Shown here piece after piece: positions 42,137 to 51,540 of a stretch of DNA of 64,000 bases. The stretch spans positions 2,108,001 to 2,172,000 of the forward strand of contig NZ_CP009428.1 in NCBI RefSeq assembly GCF_000758725.1, written 5' to 3'. The stretch is from Paenibacillus odorifer. Its GTDB lineage: Bacteria > Bacillota > Bacilli > Paenibacillales > Paenibacillaceae. The stretch's first letter is position 1. Every line of letters begins with the position of its first letter. The translations under genes were made by a program, and so were the position numbers. The notes below the pieces were generated by a model. It was not told the DNA's origin and did no database searches. It saw only the letters and a program-made list of their open reading frames with translations.

Positions 42137-42189
42137 GAAAAGACGCCCCTTCGGCTTCGTATTAATACGAGCTAGGGGCGTCTTTTTTT
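42137..42189. terminator. Terminator after the second importer
   Basis: AAAAGACGCCCCT (42138-42150) pairs with AGGGGCGTCTTTT (42173-42186), followed by more T. The A-run on the other side would also serve the convergent YheC-like gene. Confidence 0.85.
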
Positions 42190-42209: not shown

Positions 42210-43340
42210 TTATTCCTCAGTCGTTTTAGCTGTGCTGGGGGTTCCTTTGTTATTGTAGAGCCACAGCGCGTATTCCAGAGGGCGAATAAGGGCTTTGCGG
42301 TATGTGGTTCCGTCACCTGATCTTGCGAACACTTCACGGGCGGGCTTTGGATTAACCTCCAGCACGTAAATTTTCCCTTCGCGATCAATGGCGAGGTCCA
42401 ATGCAAGCTCACATAAGGCTCCGTAACTTTCTTCCAGGAAGGCTGCGGCATCAAGGCCTAACCTCTCGGCAGTCTTCATGACCTTATCGGTTTTATCCTG
42501 ACTACCCAGCCATTCCTTCAGCAGTGTTTCCGCTCGAACGGCATGACCACCGCCATGAAGATTGGAGGTTACACTCCGCGCTGCACCGACCCGTGCTGCC
42601 ATACCTGTGAGTTCCCAGACACCTTGCCCATTCTTTTGAACGAGCATCCGGTAATCATGGAAACGTCCGCCCGGCAGACGTAATGGAATCCCTTGTTGGA
42701 TAAGGAAACGTCCGCCGATGCACCATTGCCGTACGATGGAATCCAGCCGAGTAGAAGAGACTTTACGTGTGGGAATGATTCGGCGATCCTGGCGACGGCC
42801 TTGAATATCATATACCCCACGCCCATTCTTCATTCTCTCAATTCTGAGGATGCCACGTCCACCTGTGCCGTTTGCCGGCTTGATATAGACTACTGAATTG
42901 GTTTTCAGCATCCGGCGCAGGTCGGCAGAGGACTGATAGAGTAAAGTTTCTGGCATATGTTGCCGGAAACGGCTTTTTTGTGAGAATGTTTGGTGAATGG
43001 TCCATTTGTTGCGCAGTGGACGATTCAGAAATAACAGATGATTGTAGCGTTCTCGGAAACGAAGCAGTTGCTGAAAGCGTGAGCTGCGCTGAATACGGCA
43101 ACGGTCATAAATCATGTTCGGAAAAGAACGCCATTTGCGTGACCATTTTCCGCTCTTGGGATCAAAGACAAGGGCATGGATCTGCTCTTTACTGGGATGA
43201 ACATCCATGGGGGTGAAAACAAAGACATCCAAGCCAATTCGTTTGCCCTCGACGATCATTCTCCGGTACACGGCCTTTTCTTCAAGCTGCTTGGCTTCGT
43301 TAATATATAAAGTAAGAATGCCTAAGACGGGCTCTGGCAC
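42210..43340 (-). CDS. YheC/YheD-family ATP-grasp protein, copy 1 (YheC-like)
   Basis: A 376-residue ATP-grasp protein of the endospore coat-associated YheC/YheD family. The N-terminal part (to about 110) holds KWRSFPNMIYDRCRI; the ATP-grasp core has the nucleotide-binding KPANGTGGRGILR, a middle QQGIPLRLPGGRFHDYRMLV and the metal-binding EVNPKPARE. The GTG start at 43340 overlaps the GNAT gene by 19 bases, after AGAAGGTGAACTCCT. Known members are found with the spore coat in B. subtilis; the ligated substrates are not known. It is the last gene of the operon. Confidence 0.9.
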   Translation of the reverse strand: MPEPVLGILTLYINEAKQLEEKAVYRRMIVEGKRIGLDVFVFTPMDVHPSKEQIHALVFDPKSGKWSRKWRSFPNMIYDRCRIQRSSRFQQLLRFRERYNHLLFLNRPLRNKWTIHQTFSQKSRFRQHMPETLLYQSSADLRRMLKTNSVVYIKPANGTGGRGILRIERMKNGRGVYDIQGRRQDRRIIPTRKVSSTRLDSIVRQWCIGGRFLIQQGIPLRLPGGRFHDYRMLVQKNGQGVWELTGMAARVGAARSVTSNLHGGGHAVRAETLLKEWLGSQDKTDKVMKTAERLGLDAAAFLEESYGALCELALDLAIDREGKIYVLEVNPKPAREVFARSGDGTTYRKALIRPLEYALWLYNNKGTPSTAKTTEE

Positions 43341-43840
43341 AGGAGTTCACCTTCTTGTGGAGAATTAGTAGTGCTGCCGGTATGATGGGGTGACCGGAGC
43401 AGTAATGTTGGCTTGCCGGTAGGACCAGTGGTAAGTGTGTCGGCAGCAAGGCCGATATTGAAGCACATCTTTAGGCTAGCTGTATTGTCACAGGCAACAC
43501 TGCATTGCAGATGCCCGAGGCGTTTCAGCTGGGCAGCCATTAAGGCAGTGCCGGTGTGTCTATTCCGGTAGAAGGGGTGCACAGCGACAAGACAGGCTTC
43601 TGCACCGAAACCGGATACGAAGCTGACTCCTGCGAGCTGGCGCCCATTCTGACCGCGTACGGTGGCGACAAGCAGCGAGATACCCGGCTCTGACAACTGA
43701 TCCGGTGTTAAACGGGCCAGTACTTTGCAAGCTTGGTTTGTGATTCGCTTCTCCCCATGCGCTCTTATAAACTCAAGCAGTCCAGCCAGCCGTGATTTCC
43801 ACTGTTTGGCATTTGTGTCATAGATGGAGGATATCTGCAT
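43322..43840 (-). CDS. GNAT family acetyltransferase within the ATP-grasp operon
   Basis: A 172-residue protein with a GNAT fold. The acetyl-CoA-binding motif A is seen in VAVHPFYRNRHTGTALMAAQ, and motif B-like SVACDNTASLKMCFNIGL follows. The C-terminal 25 residues are rich in Ser, Thr and Gly and probably disordered. Its 3' end overlaps the start of ATP-grasp copy 1, so the two are translationally coupled. It may acetylate the product of the ATP-grasp enzymes or a coat protein; the substrate cannot be told. Confidence 0.8.
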   Translation of the reverse strand: MQISSIYDTNAKQWKSRLAGLLEFIRAHGEKRITNQACKVLARLTPDQLSEPGISLLVATVRGQNGRQLAGVSFVSGFGAEACLVAVHPFYRNRHTGTALMAAQLKRLGHLQCSVACDNTASLKMCFNIGLAADTLTTGPTGKPTLLLRSPHHTGSTTNSPQEGELLCQSPS

Positions 43841-43866
43841 GCTGTGTCACATCCTTTTAATGATTT

Positions 43867-44979
43867 CTATTTAAACTGGCGCGCTAAGTGCTGGCCGTAG
43901 TGAAAGATTCGCTCTAGGGACAGCTTGCGGATCGCGGGTTCATCAAATTTCATCGGCCGGGAGTTGGCCTCAAAGAACCAGAGTCCCCCGTTCTCATCTA
44001 CACCCAGATCCATCGACATCTCTCCGAGCATAGAGTCAGAAGCTCTTTCGATTTGTCTAGCGATAAGAAGGGCGGTTGTAGGCACGCTCTTCAGGATCAT
44101 GGCTGCTCTTTCGGTTCCAAATGTACTTTCCAGCATGCTGGCAGGCTCTTCAATACTACCGCCGCGTGGTACATGTGTCGTTATACTTCGGGCACCGGCG
44201 AGGCGTGCGCCTATGCCGGTCACTCCCCAGCCGCCTCTGCTGTTTTTTTGCAGCAGCACCCGCAGATCAAACGGTCTTCCCCGATGAGTCGCCAGTTCAA
44301 TAGCCTGCTGCACAATATAACGAGAGATTCCTTTTTCTTTTCCGATTCTTGCCCAGAGCCGGTCCATGGAAGCTGCTTTGTACGTCACATTTTTTTTGCC
44401 GCTTTGAATTTGAAGCCGGTAAGGCAAAGCGGTATCTGCACGATATTTCAGGCGCATAATTCCTTTTCCTGCTTTGCCGTTCTCTGGTTTAAGGTAGAGG
44501 CTGGTATGCTGGTTCAGCATGGCAGTAAGGGTGTTTGCACTGCGTAATCGTCTCGTTTTTGGAACATGCTTTGAGGTGGAGTGCGAACCCCTTAACCATT
44601 CGAATAGACTCCATTTATTGAAAAAATATGGATTATATAGCTTAATGCCTGGATGTTCCAGGCATTGAGCTATTTTACGTACCACAGCAGGTTTTTCCTC
44701 ATCCTCACGGGTGGGAATTCGGTTATAAATGATTTGTGGAAGAGGTACAGGAATGCTGTACCAGATTTTACCGCTGGACGATGGGACATATCCGTTCACC
44801 ATCCGTTCCTCAAGCTTGAGGTCACGGACAGTGACGACGTAGACAAGAAATCCCATTTCTTTGCCTGTGCGAATAATGTCCCGGAAGTTGCTGCGGTTGC
44901 CATTAAATTGCCGTACTTTATCGCTGGTGGTCAGTATGGCAATAACAGGTTTTGTATCTTCCGGATTATGGGTGCTCAC
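43867..44979 (-). CDS. YheC/YheD-family ATP-grasp protein, copy 2 (YheC-like)
   Basis: A 370-residue ATP-grasp protein. Core motifs are KPENGKAGKGIMRLKY, QQAIELATHRGRPFDLRVLLQ and the metal site FEANSRPMKFDE, where Arg replaces the Lys found in the other copies. It opens with KPVIAILTTSDKVRQFNGN, the short YheC-like form without the beta-rich N-terminal extension. Its ATG overlaps the upstream copy 3 by 4 bases (ATGA), so the genes are coupled. Confidence 0.9.
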   Translation of the reverse strand: MSTHNPEDTKPVIAILTTSDKVRQFNGNRSNFRDIIRTGKEMGFLVYVVTVRDLKLEERMVNGYVPSSSGKIWYSIPVPLPQIIYNRIPTREDEEKPAVVRKIAQCLEHPGIKLYNPYFFNKWSLFEWLRGSHSTSKHVPKTRRLRSANTLTAMLNQHTSLYLKPENGKAGKGIMRLKYRADTALPYRLQIQSGKKNVTYKAASMDRLWARIGKEKGISRYIVQQAIELATHRGRPFDLRVLLQKNSRGGWGVTGIGARLAGARSITTHVPRGGSIEEPASMLESTFGTERAAMILKSVPTTALLIARQIERASDSMLGEMSMDLGVDENGGLWFFEANSRPMKFDEPAIRKLSLERIFHYGQHLARQFK

Positions 44980-46349
44980 ATCTCATCCCTCCTGCGGAAT
45001 TTGCTGAGGTATAGACAATGCTCCAGAATGTGCTCGATGGAAGCTTTGCCCTCAGCGCGCAGGGAAGGGTGACGGAAGATGGAACGACCTGGTTTGGCGT
45101 TGGCCTCGAACATCCAGATGTCTTCATCCTGATCAATTCCGAGATCAAAGCCAATTTCACCGAGCAAATGACGATGCTGGACTTCTAGTGATTCTGCCAG
45201 CTTGATGGCTGTAGTCTTTGCACGCTGCAGTACTTCGTCAGCTCTTGCGCCGAATACACGTCCGAGTGCTTGCTGAGGTGTAAGCAATGCTCCTCCATTT
45301 TTAAGGTGAGTGGTGACACTGCCACGGCCGGCTTTTTTAGCGCCTATGCCGACTACAATCCACTGATTACTGCCGTTTTTATGCATATGGAACCGGAAAT
45401 CAATCGGGCAGCCATCTATTTCAATGAGGCGTATTCCCTGCTGAACTATATAATTTTGCAGATTTTGACCGTGACGCGAACGAAGCATACGCATAAGGGC
45501 TTCAAAGGTGGTAAAGCGTAAAAGAACGTTTTTTCCACCGCGGCGGTAGCGGGCAAAATACCCCTTTTTCGGGAGATAGGTAAGCCGATAAATTCCGTGA
45601 CCCAGACTTCCCGCAGAAGGTTTATAGTATACAAAATGATGGTGATCCAGCATTTCTCTCATTTTTTCCGTGGACGGATTGCTGTGGGTTTCAGGTACGT
45701 AACGATTTGCCGCCCCATCATTTTCTAAAAGCTTATAGATATCGGATTTATTGAAAAAGCTCCAGTTAAAGTATGGAATTCTTTTCCGCATAAATCGTTC
45801 GCGAAGTTGGTTGATATAGGGTGAGGTCTCAGCTCTCCGACTGGGCAATCGATTATAGACAACATCAGGCAGAGGGACCATTTTTCGTTCAAACTTACCG
45901 CTTGAAGTCAAAAAATATCCATAGACCTGTTCCTGTTGCCAGTTGATGTCACGCGGCATAAAGGCAAATATATAACATTTGTTGCTGCCTTCCCGCAGTA
46001 ATTGCTTGATGAACCCTGTGCGAGAACCGAAAGGCTGAGACGAGGAAGCAGGACCATCGGACAATATGCCAACTAAAGGTCCTAGCTGCACCTCGTCATT
46101 CTGTAGATTGCGTAAATAGACACCGCCTGATTTCGGAACCTTGATAGCGCTTTTTACGCCTGAGGCGAGATATAGGTGATTTCCGGCGCGCTTGATGGGC
46201 TTGATCATGGTCGGGGTGGCATCTTTACCGAGCCTTAAGCGTATATTTTTTTTCCCGGTTAACTTCAAGCTTTTCATCAGTGCACCTGATACATATACAA
46301 CTCTTTGGGGCTGCTTAGTGAAATGCACATTGCAAAAAGTGAGACTCAT
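44976..46349 (-). CDS. YheC/YheD-family ATP-grasp protein, copy 3 (YheD-like, long form)
   Basis: A 457-residue protein close in length to B. subtilis YheD (about 453). The first 95 residues form a beta-rich extension (VVYVSGALMKSLKLTGKKN..., VYLRNLQNDEVQLGPLVGIL). The ATP-grasp part has KPSAGSLGHGIYRLTY, QQGIRLIEIDGCPIDFRFH and metal site FEANAKPGRSIFRHP. GGAGGATTCATAA precedes the ATG. It directly abuts the copy 4 gene upstream (no gap), so the operon is continuous. Confidence 0.9.
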   Translation of the reverse strand: MSLTFCNVHFTKQPQRVVYVSGALMKSLKLTGKKNIRLRLGKDATPTMIKPIKRAGNHLYLASGVKSAIKVPKSGGVYLRNLQNDEVQLGPLVGILSDGPASSSQPFGSRTGFIKQLLREGSNKCYIFAFMPRDINWQQEQVYGYFLTSSGKFERKMVPLPDVVYNRLPSRRAETSPYINQLRERFMRKRIPYFNWSFFNKSDIYKLLENDGAANRYVPETHSNPSTEKMREMLDHHHFVYYKPSAGSLGHGIYRLTYLPKKGYFARYRRGGKNVLLRFTTFEALMRMLRSRHGQNLQNYIVQQGIRLIEIDGCPIDFRFHMHKNGSNQWIVVGIGAKKAGRGSVTTHLKNGGALLTPQQALGRVFGARADEVLQRAKTTAIKLAESLEVQHRHLLGEIGFDLGIDQDEDIWMFEANAKPGRSIFRHPSLRAEGKASIEHILEHCLYLSKFRRRDEM

Positions 46350-47516
46350 TTATGAATCCTCCTTAGGAACCATTGTTATCATTCTCCCGTTTGTAACGGA
46401 GCTGTCCGTAGATAGGGATGGTATCCGTCGTTGTGTGAGCAGTAGATGGCGCGCATAAGACAGTGGATTCTCGGCGGCGAGCTTAGCAGCCCGGCGGTCG
46501 CCCGTCAGCCGGAATACCGTGCGCCCTGGCTTGGAATTTGCTTCTAGTAAATGAATCCGACCGCTCGAATCAATACCGAAATCAAGGCCGAGTTCTCCAA
46601 GCCTGCCGCATGCAGCCTCCAGTAGTGGAGGCAAGTATGCAGCTTCTGCAGCAAGCTCACGCATGATGTCTTTTCCACCCTGACCATATTCTGCAAGCAA
46701 AAAAGGCAGGGGAGAAACAGCTGTTCCGCCGCCATGCAGGTTCGAAGTCAGCGAACCTTGGTTACCCAGCCGTACGGCCATGCCGGTAAGAGTCCAGCGG
46801 CCAAGGCCATTCTTTTGCATCAATACACGCACATCGAACGGTTGCCCCTTACTATTAGTTAGGTGCAGGAAAGGCTGTATAATATAGCGGCGTGAGCCGA
46901 TAAATTCATGAATCCAGTTCAGTCCTTCAGCCTGTGAGTCGAAAACATATTGAAATGGTGTATTTGTTCCGTCACGCCCTCGTACTCTCATGCCTCTGTT
47001 CTGCAGTATGGAATGTAATGTACGTTTGCCATGGGTGCCGGCCTTGGGCTTTAGAAAAACTCCATATTCTCTTTCAGCAAGCATTGTACTTAACCTGCGG
47101 GTACCGGTATAGAGTACAGTTTCCGGCAGTATTGCCGCTGCTCTCCGGTCGCGCTTCAATATCTCATGTACACCCCATTTATCTGGCAAACCTCGAGACC
47201 AAGGTAGAGAACGATGAAGAGAAGAAAGTGCAGCGGAAGCTTCTTTTCTTTCTTTCGGACCTTCGTGAAAACAGCGATTATAGACAATATCTGGCGGTGA
47301 AGAAGTGGTATTCTGCCAGCTTCCATCTTTCCAGGTATAGCCGGTAATGGAGGAACCGTCTGCCGCTACTCCGTCTGGATGAAATACGAGGACTTTTAGG
47401 CTGTATAGAGGAGCTGCCCGGCATAAATGACTGCAAAACTCTGGCTCGGCGATCGGTGGATTCCCGTTGCGGCGGCCTGTCATAATGCCGAGGAACCCCA
47501 CTTCTTTTTCAGTCAT
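46350..47516 (-). CDS. YheC/YheD-family ATP-grasp protein, copy 4 (YheC-like)
   Basis: A 388-residue short-form ATP-grasp protein beginning MTEKEVGFLGIMTGRRNGNP. Motifs are FLKPKAGTHGKRTLHSIL (the usual GKGI is changed to GKRT), QPFLHLTNSKGQPFDVRVL and metal site LEANSKPGRTVFRLTG. It lies 10 bases after copy 5 and immediately before copy 3. The altered glycine loop may affect nucleotide binding, but the lysine and the metal-site residues are kept. Confidence 0.9.
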   Translation of the reverse strand: MTEKEVGFLGIMTGRRNGNPPIAEPEFCSHLCRAAPLYSLKVLVFHPDGVAADGSSITGYTWKDGSWQNTTSSPPDIVYNRCFHEGPKERKEASAALSSLHRSLPWSRGLPDKWGVHEILKRDRRAAAILPETVLYTGTRRLSTMLAEREYGVFLKPKAGTHGKRTLHSILQNRGMRVRGRDGTNTPFQYVFDSQAEGLNWIHEFIGSRRYIIQPFLHLTNSKGQPFDVRVLMQKNGLGRWTLTGMAVRLGNQGSLTSNLHGGGTAVSPLPFLLAEYGQGGKDIMRELAAEAAYLPPLLEAACGRLGELGLDFGIDSSGRIHLLEANSKPGRTVFRLTGDRRAAKLAAENPLSYARHLLLTQRRIPSLSTDSSVTNGRMITMVPKEDS

Positions 47517-47526
47517 CGTGTCCTCC

Positions 47527-48894
47527 TTATAAACCGGCCAAGTAGCGGCAATATAAAATCATTTGCTTGACGGACGGTCTTATTTTTTGATCGTTTAACG
47601 GTGTATTATCGTTCTTGGAGGGCTTGGAGTTAACCTCTAAGAGCCATATTCGTCCTGATTGATCCAGTGCCAGATCGATTCCGAGCTCTCCGAAATGAGC
47701 GGGGATAAAGGTTTCGACCCCTCTTGCAATGGCAAGTGCTGCTCTGGGCAGCTGAAGCTGAACGTTTTCTTTTGCGCCCGGAGGAAGACTGCTCTTGCTA
47801 ATCGCTTCTTTCACTGTGCTGAGACTGCCACCTCTAGCTAAATTAGACACGAAGTGATTGCTTCCGGCGGTGCGGGCGACAATGGAGGTAACTCCCCATT
47901 TTCCGCTGCCATTCTTCTGAACAAGTGCCCGGAAATCTACAGGTCGCCTTCCTAGCTCCATCAAAGGCAATCCCTGCTGAATCTGGTATCGAGTGGTCTT
48001 CATTTTGGGAGCGATGGACTGGTACAATTTAGCGAGAGTGGTGTAGCTTTGCTTGCGTGTACCTATGGAGGTAGTAGACAATAGACGGTAACCTCCGCCT
48101 TCTTCTTTAGAGATACGAAGTATGCCTTTGCCGAGACTGCCTCGTACAGGTTTCAAAAATACACTTGGGTAATGGCTGCACATCTTCTTCATTACGGCAA
48201 AGCCGTTCAACGCATGCGATTCAGGTAAATACCGCTGCAGGGAAGGGTCTTGCGCTAAAGCTTCAAATACCTCTGTCTTGTCAAGAAATTTTTCGTTGAA
48301 GAAATGCGTTCCATATCGCGATTTTACATCCGCCAAAAAATGCTGTACGCTAGGTTTATTCTCCACCTTTCGCGTCGTTAACCGATTGTTGATTACATCG
48401 GCAATGGGCAGACTCATTTTTCTCCAACCCTCGTTGTATACCCAGCCCTGAATGGAAGAACTGCGTGTTTCCAGCGCTTCCGGGGTAAAGAAATATACAT
48501 AGGCGCCTTGTGTGTGGCAGGCATTTGTCAATTCCCGGCAGAACATGGTAATGGGTCCAAACAACCTGTCGAGATTATCTGGATGGTCACGACTGACGAG
48601 CACGCCGATCAACGGTCCAAGCCGCAAGGTGCGGCTTACAGAGCTGTAAGAAACGTTGAGGGTTTGTCGGTGTTTCCATCCGGTCCGCCGCGCCAGTCCT
48701 TCGCTTACACGCAGGATGTCGGATTTGGGAGCCGAGATAATGGTAACCTCCTGCCGGAAAGAGCCGAATGCCAGCTGGAGTGTTCCGTGAGACGGGATTT
48801 TGAGTCTTTTCATGGATTTTTCGCCAAGCATTATAGCGTTTTCCTGCAGGATGCCCGAGTTGACCGTATGGACCGGGATCTTGAATTGGGACAT
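47527..48894 (-). CDS. YheC/YheD-family ATP-grasp protein, copy 5 (YheD-like, first gene)
   Basis: A 455-residue long-form protein, first gene of the operon. The N-terminal beta-rich extension (FKIPVHTVNSGILQENAIML... LRLGPLIGVLVSRD) is followed by the ATP-grasp part with FLKPVRGSLGKGILRISK, QQGLPLMELGRRPVDFRAL and metal site LEVNSKPSKND. ATG 48894 is chosen because AAGGAG sits 7 bases before it; the frame is open to 48921. It is divergent from yheA, the same neighbourhood as in B. subtilis, where yheA, yheC and yheD lie together. Confidence 0.9.
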   Translation of the reverse strand: MSQFKIPVHTVNSGILQENAIMLGEKSMKRLKIPSHGTLQLAFGSFRQEVTIISAPKSDILRVSEGLARRTGWKHRQTLNVSYSSVSRTLRLGPLIGVLVSRDHPDNLDRLFGPITMFCRELTNACHTQGAYVYFFTPEALETRSSSIQGWVYNEGWRKMSLPIADVINNRLTTRKVENKPSVQHFLADVKSRYGTHFFNEKFLDKTEVFEALAQDPSLQRYLPESHALNGFAVMKKMCSHYPSVFLKPVRGSLGKGILRISKEEGGGYRLLSTTSIGTRKQSYTTLAKLYQSIAPKMKTTRYQIQQGLPLMELGRRPVDFRALVQKNGSGKWGVTSIVARTAGSNHFVSNLARGGSLSTVKEAISKSSLPPGAKENVQLQLPRAALAIARGVETFIPAHFGELGIDLALDQSGRIWLLEVNSKPSKNDNTPLNDQKIRPSVKQMILYCRYLAGL

Positions 48895-49081
48895 CGTGGA
48901 TCTCCTTCCGGTAGGCAGCATGATGCCGGCAATTTGGTAGCTAAGGGTTACATATCATTCATCATATGGAGACAGATGACCCTTGGTGATTGACCTAATC
49001 GCTAAAAACCTTGCCCAGTCATTTCATAAGCTCGGCCCAAGAAGCGAAACAAGTATGGAATGAGCGAATATTGGAAACTAA

Positions 49082-49255
49082 AGCAGCGTGGATTCAGGAA
49101 GCGGCTGCTAACAAAACTTAAGCGTATGTTTTCGGAGTGAGTTTTTAGAGCAGAGTAGATTCAGGAAGCAGCTGTTACAAAACCTAAGCGTAAGCTTCCG
49201 AAGTGAGTTTTGCACGAAGACGATCTGAGGAGTGTACGCTAACAAAACTTTTAGG
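49082..49255. repeat. Imperfect direct repeat upstream of yheA
   Basis: Two copies of about 64 bases, 49082-49145 and 49149-49211, share AGCAG.GT.GATTCAGGAAGC then a block ending in GTGAGTTTT. A partial third copy (GCTAACAAAACTT) is at 49238-49250, just before the yheA ribosome site. Each full copy contains facing arms AAAACTTA/TGAGTTTT that could fold. The gap 48895-49265 holds no recognisable gene besides these repeats. Confidence 0.7.
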
Positions 49256-49265
49256 AGGAATCATA

Positions 49266-49604
49266 ATGAGCATTCACGACAAAGCACATGAACTGGCGAA
49301 AGCCATTAAAGAGAGCAGCGAGGTATCGGACATCAGAAATGCCATGAAGGTCGTAGAAACGGATCCTGAAGCGAAAGCGATGCTGGACAATTTCCGCCAA
49401 GGTCAGATGGAGCTGCAACAACGGATGATGAGCGGAGAAATGCCTCCACAAGAAGAAATGGAAAAGATGGAGAAGCTGTTCGAGGTGCTTAATTTGAATC
49501 TTGGCATTCGTCGTCTGTTCGATGCGGAACGCCGTCTGAGCGTTGTAATCGAGGATGTAAATAAAATTATCACCGAGAGTTTGTCCCAATTGTACGGTGA
49601 ATAA
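49266..49604 (+). CDS. yheA: YlbF/YmcA-superfamily protein, YheA-like
   Basis: A 112-residue all-alpha protein of the Com_YlbF / UPF0342 family (MSIHDKAHELAKAIKESSEV..., METDPEAKAMLDNFR-like core, ending SLSQLYGE). The LYG ending and lengths match B. subtilis YheA. Relatives YlbF and YmcA influence sporulation and RNA processing; YheA's own role is unclear. TTAGGAGG precedes ATG 49266; the frame is open to 49203. It is divergent from the ATP-grasp operon and followed by a terminator. Confidence 0.88.
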   Translation: MSIHDKAHELAKAIKESSEVSDIRNAMKVVETDPEAKAMLDNFRQGQMELQQRMMSGEMPPQEEMEKMEKLFEVLNLNLGIRRLFDAERRLSVVIEDVNKIITESLSQLYGE

Positions 49605-50839: not shown

Positions 50840-51540
50840 AAAGCACGGCAGTCGTGCAAAGAGAGGCATAAGTGCCTTAGAATGTTGCGGAAAGCGCAGA
50901 AGTGCCGAAAAGAGAGGTATAAATACCGTAGAATGCCGCGGAAAGCGTAGAAGTAGCTAAAAGAGAAGTATAAATGCCTTAGAATGCCGCGCAAAACACC
51001 AAAGTAGCCAAAAGAAAGGTATAAATACCGTAGAATGCCGGGCAAAACGCAAAAGTCGTGAAAAGAGAAGTATAAATACCGTAGAATGCCGGGCAAAACA
51101 CCAAAGTAGCCAAAAGAAAGGTATAAATACCGTAGAATGCCGGGCAAAACGCAAAAGACGTGAAAAGAGAAGTATAAATACCGTAGAATGTCGCACAAAA
51201 CGCATAAGTAGCCAAAAGAGAAGTATAAATACCGTAGAATGCCGCACAAAACGCACAAGTACCCAAAAGAGAGGTATAAATACCGTAGAATGCCGCGGAA
51301 ATCGCACAAGTAGCCAAAAGAGAGGTATAAATACCGTAGAATGCCGGGCAAAACACCAAAGTAGCCAAAAGAAAGGTATAAATACCGTAGAATGCCGGGC
51401 AAATCGTAAAAGTAGCCAAAAGAGAAGTATAAATACCGTAGAATGTCGCACAAAACGCATAAGTAGCCAAAAGAGAAGTATAAATACCTCAGAATGCCGA
51501 GCCAAGCGCAAAAGTCACACAAAGAGGCATACAAAAAAGA
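50840..51540. repeat. 51-bp tandem repeat array (minisatellite), about 14 units
   Basis: Twelve uninterrupted 51-base units run from 50891 to 51502 with no length change, with one degenerate unit on each side (from 50840, and 51503 onward). The shared core reads GTATAAATACCGTAGAATG in most units, and GGTAT/ATACC can pair within it. Three units (50993, 51095, 51350) are identical over all 51 bases, and neighbouring units form a 102-base higher-order pattern. Because 51 is divisible by three, all three minus-strand frames stay open for long stretches, but none has a ribosome site. Confidence 0.93.

Follow-up and report, generated by a model that had tools for sequence, protein, structure and literature searches.

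Within a stretch of 64,000 nt of the Paenibacillus odorifer genome (the window; positions are coordinates within it, and G000 denotes the window's own genome), we analyzed a compact minus-strand operon at 42210-48894. The operon comprises five genes of the ATP-grasp family PF14398 (ATPgrasp_YheCD), designated A, B, C, D, and E in transcription order, and one GNAT gene. The features are listed below in transcription order, with protein lengths in amino acids (aa) and, for the modeled domain, the predicted local distance difference test score (pLDDT).

47527..48894, minus strand: gene A, long form, N-terminal domain plus YheC/D ATP-grasp domain, 455 aa (PF14398, 265.6 bits)
46350..47516, minus strand: gene B, short form, 388 aa, loop KAGTHGKRT (PF14398, 223.9 bits)
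44976..46349, minus strand: gene C, long form, 457 aa (PF14398, 269.1 bits)
46083..46349, minus strand: N-terminal domain of C, residues 1-89, predicted double-psi beta-barrel (model pLDDT 84)
43867..44979, minus strand: gene D, short form, 370 aa, Arg in the motif E-N-x-R-P (PF14398, 257.9 bits)
43322..43840, minus strand: GNAT acetyltransferase-type gene, 172 aa (PF00583, 21.7 bits against a cut-off of 20.7)
42210..43340, minus strand: gene E, short form, 376 aa (PF14398, 256.7 bits)

In the profile search, all five genes exceeded the PF14398 cut-off of 26.8 bits by far (224-269 bits), which bears out the initial annotation, made from the sequence alone, of five YheC/D ATP-grasp genes and a GNAT gene of these lengths in one operon. 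The genes are separated by gaps of 10, 0, and 26 bp or overlap by 4 and 19 bp. An alternative start of gene A, an upstream ATG at 48921, would give a protein of 464 aa. The two odd motifs of that annotation both exist, but its copy numbering does not hold: GKRT belongs to the 388-aa gene, the second, and the Arg to the 370-aa gene, the fourth, the numbers given having followed coordinate order and not transcription order. In the GNAT gene (43322-43840, minus strand), the CoA loop reads RNRHTG versus RGRGIG in some distant relatives, with His in place of the conserved Gly.

A similarity scan with gene A detected 41 loci. At 31 of these, A-B-C-D-E are all present in order (gene A being shortened in L059), and 29 of the 31 full arrays carry the GNAT gene, which L066 and L072 lack. 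Among the other ten loci, L042, L046, and L065 are without a full E, L060 and L069 have broken frames, L040 and L048 are cut by contig ends, and L073, L076, and L078 are not from Paenibacillales. Five frames in order at so many loci exclude chance and assembly error, the latter having been named at the outset as a possible refutation of the array. We also sampled 11 array stretches from the Paenibacillales families f1, f2, and f5 to f10; ten had A-B-C-D-E in order, and the remaining one, L159, begins at B at a contig end. The number of PF14398 genes was 8-15 in each of 61 genomes of the genus and 4-18 in all 60 genomes of the order. Ordered arrays across families, together with multiple PF14398 copies in every genome, indicate a fixed feature and no strain peculiarity: the five-gene array is a very old fixed feature of Paenibacillus and its kin. 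Single loci show further variation in gene E. The matches at L042:15606-15734 and L046:15590-15718 end after about 43 residues, with A-D and the GNAT gene present, reflecting a pseudogene or a frame error. Paenibacillus tritici carries a second, partial gene E (L049:18944-19681) about 3.5 kb downstream of the full copy, 79% identical over residues 98-343.

The expected ATP-grasp catalytic and metal residues are almost invariant in all five genes, as a motif survey of 45-49 sequences per gene revealed. K201, K243, D317, R319, E398, D402, E415, and N417 are kept in all five Paenibacillales groups, with the exception of one gapped row of A. The claim that no copy has lost its ATP and metal residues thus stands. 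Two positions deviate: the last loop Gly of B is replaced (Arg in 31 of 49 sequences), and position 419 of D is Arg in 24 sequences and Lys in 22. We do not read the Gly-to-Arg change in B as inactivation, because the remaining residues persist. We estimated the ratio of nonsynonymous to synonymous substitution rates (dN/dS) of the six genes against three relatives. Of 18 comparisons, two were saturated (D versus L039 and C versus L041); the 16 in which dS was finite gave 0.03-0.15. For L039 and L041, dS always exceeded 1, which makes those values approximate. All five ATP-grasp genes are under purifying selection.

The AlphaFold2 model of C (pLDDT 89.7) has an ATP-grasp fold from residue 90 on (residues 90-453; C was the only protein modeled). 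The best VIA match was RimK (Z 21.6 over 276 residues), followed by LysX/ArgX (20.6), glutathione synthetase (20.4), TTL (18.6), TTLL6 (18.1), and PsnB (18.0), all of which share the fold with C (Z 18.0-20.6 below RimK); by Foldseek E-value, Ddl and ArgX lead. RimK is a poly-alpha-glutamate ligase acting on the C-terminus of S6. C is only 18% identical to it, and the long forms of YheC/D differ by their extra N-terminal domain. When folded apart, residues 1-93 of C resembled the double-psi barrels of p97/CDC48-N and PEX1-N (VIA Z up to 8.9; in Foldseek the best E was 2.2e-3, with none below 1e-3). Judging from this model, the barrel of the long forms may bind a partner protein. At the sequence level, C had no match in the PDB at E 0.1, and against TIGR00768 (RimK family) only A was listed at E 0.001, with 21.0 bits against a cut-off of 143.4, and B-E were not listed. 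Some glutathione-synthetase, RimK-like, or MptN models were also hit by A and E, with scores far under the cut-offs. As PsnB is a graspetide ligase, a pathway in which the ATP-grasp proteins cyclize a small ribosomal peptide was considered. The six genes leave no room for a precursor between them, with gaps of at most 26 bp (small open reading frames [ORFs] outside were not systematically searched), and we regard this explanation as very improbable.

The initial annotation had derived the array from a duplicated YheD-YheC pair with one additional copy, which would make the enzymes redundant, and had suggested a phylogeny of the five copies as a check. Long and short forms do alternate, and A+C with YheD as one clade was not rejected by the approximately unbiased (AU) test (p 0.584). 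However, pairwise identity among the A-E proteins is only 27-33%, and a tree of 52 rows, with AU tests on constrained groupings, recovered separate clades. Clades A and D each join partners from L132/L134 (support 100/96 and 100/98, respectively), C groups with Bacillus YheD (100/98) and with L132 and L134 (92/75), B groups with YheC (97/95), and clade E has support of 100/100. B, E, and YheC lie on one side of a branch (100/100), and B+D with YheC as one clade was rejected (AU p 0.00012). YheC could be placed with B or E (p 0.449) but not with D (p 0.005). Orthologs of A, C, D, and B/E also keep the same order in L132 and L134. The low identity, the separate clades, and the fixed order across Paenibacillales argue against a local pair duplication, which has hardly any probability left.

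The gene order in Bacillus is yheC then yheD, that is, a B/E-type gene followed by a C-type gene, again not the order of a YheD-YheC pair. All 26 Bacillus genomes had exactly two PF14398 genes, and those placed in the tree lack a separate A, D, or second B/E gene. The matching order, B then C, and the presence of only two copies suggest that yheC-yheD arose by reduction from a longer ancestral row. The Bacillus pair and the array in the window each have a YlbF-family gene nearby, whereas PF14395, the ligase family described below, is absent from G206 and from the B. subtilis control. YheC is degenerate in the three Bacillus members read; at these loci (L147, L194, and L195), YheD of the same group keeps nearly all catalytic residues, and YheC is likely a pseudoenzyme beside an active enzyme. 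Five further PF14398 genes, mostly short, are dispersed through G000; four were placed in the tree and fell outside the A-E clades, and the one at 5731114-5731779 carries an in-frame TAA.

G000:C1:6554-7360, 355532-356248, 2485104-2485847, 5682035-5682793, and 5731114-5731779: further PF14398 genes

Next to related arrays in other spore formers lie two genes that suggest what the ligases act on: cotE, encoding the coat morphogenetic protein CotE (PF10628), and a gene of PF14395, the phage phiEco32-like COOH-NH2 ligase type 2. PF14395 belongs to another ligase superfamily than YheC/D, presumably the GCS/glutamine-synthetase-like one. We surveyed 99 genomes of the phylum for PF14398, SpoIVA, CotE, and PF14395, and found 37, 87, 17, and 13 positives, respectively. 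The 17 CotE genomes comprised three Bacilli, five weak matches that were dropped, and nine clear cases (E <1e-20) from genomes related to the window organism at phylum level only (hereafter non-Bacilli). In seven of these nine, representing six of seven genera, a distance of 538-877 bp separates the cotE domain from a PF14398 array; of the other two, G121 carries cotE on a different contig, and G160 is without PF14398. PF14398 is present in each of the 13 PF14395 genomes (Fisher p 5.8e-7, or 4.2e-6 without the organism's own family, related genomes being counted as independent), and in all 11 outside the own family the PF14395 gene adjoins the array, at 0-829 bp in ten and at 4684 bp in G151. 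In G192, one of the three PF14395 copies carries a fused YheC/D domain. At L198:1064-3838 (minus strand), a single protein of 924 aa joins PF14395 COOH-NH2 ligase and YheC/D ATP-grasp domains.

The gene order at L133 and L134 is cotE - A - PF14395 - B - C - D - GNAT - a weakly CotS-like gene, and L132 is identical on the other strand. The GNAT gene after D in L132-L134 is homologous to that of the window and in the same place (hhalign 99.7%). The CotS-like gene is no more than a lead: TIGR02906 gave 21.2 bits against a cut-off of 172.7, in L199 only and not in L196, and the two proteins tested matched no Pfam family. NCBIfam, searched at E 0.001, gave no match for CotE, the PF14395 protein, the GNAT protein of L041, or two other ORFs.

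In Paenibacillales the same parts are split. cotE is adjacent to PF14395 in 58 of 58 genomes that have both, out of 60, their starts being no more than 1980 bp apart (in G065 the ligase frame of the pair is broken). In the window's genome this pair lies at G000:C1:3827040-3829013, with cotE at G000:C1:3828492-3829013, outside the window and about 1.67 Mb from the array. If a module is defined by cotE, PF14395, and a YheC/D array, G000 thus has all three at two loci, with cotE beside PF14395, and seven sampled non-Bacilli genomes have them as one gene cluster. Outside Bacilli, PF14395 partners homologous arrays; in Paenibacillales its partner is cotE. G078, from the window organism's family, lacks SpoIVA, CotE, and PF14395 altogether and has four divergent PF14398 matches and no A-E array; G071 has CotE and lacks PF14395. 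SpoIVA itself was discarded as a marker of PF14398, since its presence in 34 of 37 positive versus 53 of 62 negative genomes is too weak a difference, with only G078 telling.

The row at L128 (G153:C3:95500-114800) holds eleven YheC/D genes; a Mur-ligase-like gene is interspersed among them, and the row ends in a Ddl-like ATP-grasp gene. Mur-ligase-like genes also occur in or near the arrays of L078, G128, G198, and Thermincola. Together with those of G153 and the terminal Ddl-like gene there, they raise the alternative that the product of the ligases is a peptide polymer, free or bound to the wall, such as a poly-amino acid or a peptide decoration of cortex or coat, instead of a modified CotE, and that the linkage to cotE reflects only a shared coat regulon. 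Several ligases in series would suit stepwise peptide synthesis, and so would the fusion of PF14395 to YheC/D. On the other hand, no Mur-like neighbor was present in the stretches read of Paenibacillales arrays, G203, or G134, the Mur-like gene of G171 lies about 7 kb past the array in an apparent general wall cluster, and cotE stands at the array edge in seven of nine genomes. We regard a peptide polymer as possible but rather unlikely.

RimK extends S6, LysX/ArgX extend LysW, and TTLs modify tubulin tails; RimK, TTLL, and LysX relatives act on acidic tails. For CotE, 23 C-terminal tails from Bacilli were read, 22 of them from Paenibacillales, and all are acidic. An LDxDLL-like end was found in 19 of the 22 Paenibacillales tails, nine being exactly LDPDLL; it is absent from G071, the genome without PF14395, and also from L207 and L214, whose genomes have PF14395. 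Of the non-Bacilli tails, 7 of 12 are acidic, and at least one acidic-tailed CotE occurs at each of the seven array-linked non-Bacilli loci read. A study on B. subtilis reported that CotH binding depends on a negative charge at the C-terminus of CotE, and that truncated CotE regains binding or assembly when Glu or Asp is added (PMC4618286). The tail was also tried as a marker of the array and rejected: G121 and G160, of the same genus, have no acidic extension, yet G121 still holds three PF14398 matches, so there is no clean contrast.

Gene neighborhoods associate the YheC/D family with the spore coat as well as with an amide ligase of a second type, and this makes an amide- or peptide-type modification of the coat, as first proposed from the sequence, the best reading. 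On balance, we favor an ancient spore-coat amidoligase system that is split in two, with the operon as its larger half; its acceptor would be a coat protein, most plausibly the CotE tail. As we infer their activity and timing, the five ATP-grasp proteins would activate a carboxylate with ATP during spore formation and join to it an amino acid or small amine, each lineage from A to E retaining its own specificity. The other half would be sited elsewhere in Paenibacillales, as cotE followed by the COOH-NH2 ligase. The conserved acidic tail of CotE could be extended in the fashion of RimK, LysX/ArgX, and TTL, with glutamate perhaps as the added amino acid; the long forms would use their barrel to hold the partner protein, and capping or modification of the product may fall to the GNAT protein. 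The more specific proposal is that YheC/YheD-type ATP-grasp enzymes act as amino-acid ligases on the acidic CotE tail, extending or decorating it, possibly by glutamylation, and so tune outer-coat assembly, with the full version in Paenibacillales and a remnant in B. subtilis. We hold this only tentatively and rate it as less probable than its opposite; tail extension is offered as a concrete hypothesis, next to which other coat proteins or a free peptide are possible.

Several observations weigh against the favored amidoligase reading. PF14395 is missing from 24 of the 37 genomes with PF14398, neither CotE nor PF14395 adjoins the arrays outside the A-E clades (e.g. L128, L135-L139, L163), and array and cotE lie apart in Paenibacillales and Bacillus. 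The linkage could reflect a shared role in the coat without CotE being the substrate. Five of the 12 non-Bacilli tails are not acidic (three second copies beside arrays, G121, and G160). In the same B. subtilis study, CotE shortened by 12 or 20 residues remained functional for CotH, ending in an acidic residue of its own (PMC4618286); such truncations work unaided, so encoded residues can suffice. In another study, YheD bound none of the tested coat proteins in two-hybrid assays (PMC7911427). Finally, in Bacillus YheC, of which three low-scoring members were read out of six such genomes, the ATP lysine, loop glycines, and metal residues are lost in all three. This loss in one Bacillus group would also agree with the idea that the proteins are now mainly self-assembling structural parts of the coat, for which ligase activity is unimportant, as would the strong self-interaction and shell formation of B. 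subtilis YheD described in that study (PMC7911427). Retention of the catalytic residues in all five Paenibacillales groups, bar the one gapped A row, speaks against such a role for the array, and we consider it improbable.

The flanks of the operon contain the following features.

48945..48996, minus strand: conserved promoter-like block, ATCACC, then CATATGATG 17 nt after AC (upstream alignment)
42138..42186, minus strand: terminator hairpin 3' of the operon, main stem (fold -29.3 kcal/mol, z -7.9)
49266..49604, plus strand: divergent YlbF-family gene (YheA-like) beside the array (PF06133, 97.8 bits)

The block upstream of A is near-invariant in 23 Paenibacillus upstream regions, the window included, and can still be recognized, at up to 130 nt, in 12 of 13 more distant loci (absent from L070; mainly the 3' half in L144). 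Its strict pattern has one exact match in the whole genome. The layout resembles that of a promoter of the sigma-K/sigma-E type. Consensus scans of the region for sigma-70 promoters and simple terminators were no richer than shuffles. The start of the YlbF-family gene was set at an internal ATG of the frame opening at 49203. A homologous set of neighbors adjoins the YheC/D genes of G061, G070, G206, and G216, the YlbF gene of the window being outside this comparison. At 50858-51515 there is a 51-bp tandem repeat (12.9 copies, 85% matches), open in three minus-strand frames and probably no gene.

The Pfam text for PF14398 reportedly already predicts modification of spore-wall proteins, which points in the same direction. 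The amidoligase work of Iyer et al. (2009) may have noted the neighbors and would be the likeliest earlier prediction of the linkage. Earlier reports describe YheD as an early, self-associating coat protein that forms a SpoIVA-dependent shell around the spore and whose function is stated to be unknown (PMC7911427), yheC/yheD as members of the sigma-E regulon with stimulation by SpoIIID (PMC517825), and YheD as forming rings like YutH (PMC7769602) and as listed among SpoIVA-interacting proteins and absent from Anoxybacillus flavithermus (PMC3533761). Judging by titles, beginnings of abstracts, and passages, we found no report of the A-E order, the yheC-yheD reduction, the cotE/PF14395 linkage, or the split, and literature on ATP-grasp with CotE or on glutamylation with the spore coat contained no report of CotE extension by title. 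New here are the fixed A-E order across Paenibacillales, the reduction to YheC-YheD, the counted linkage to cotE and PF14395, and the split arrangement.

This linkage gives YheD a partner, CotE, a second enzyme, the COOH-NH2 ligase, and a prediction that can be tested by mass spectrometry. A weak phenotype in B. subtilis, with its reduced set, could make the system seem less important than it is. If it is true that a coat morphogenetic protein is extended post-translationally, coat assembly would gain a regulatory layer.

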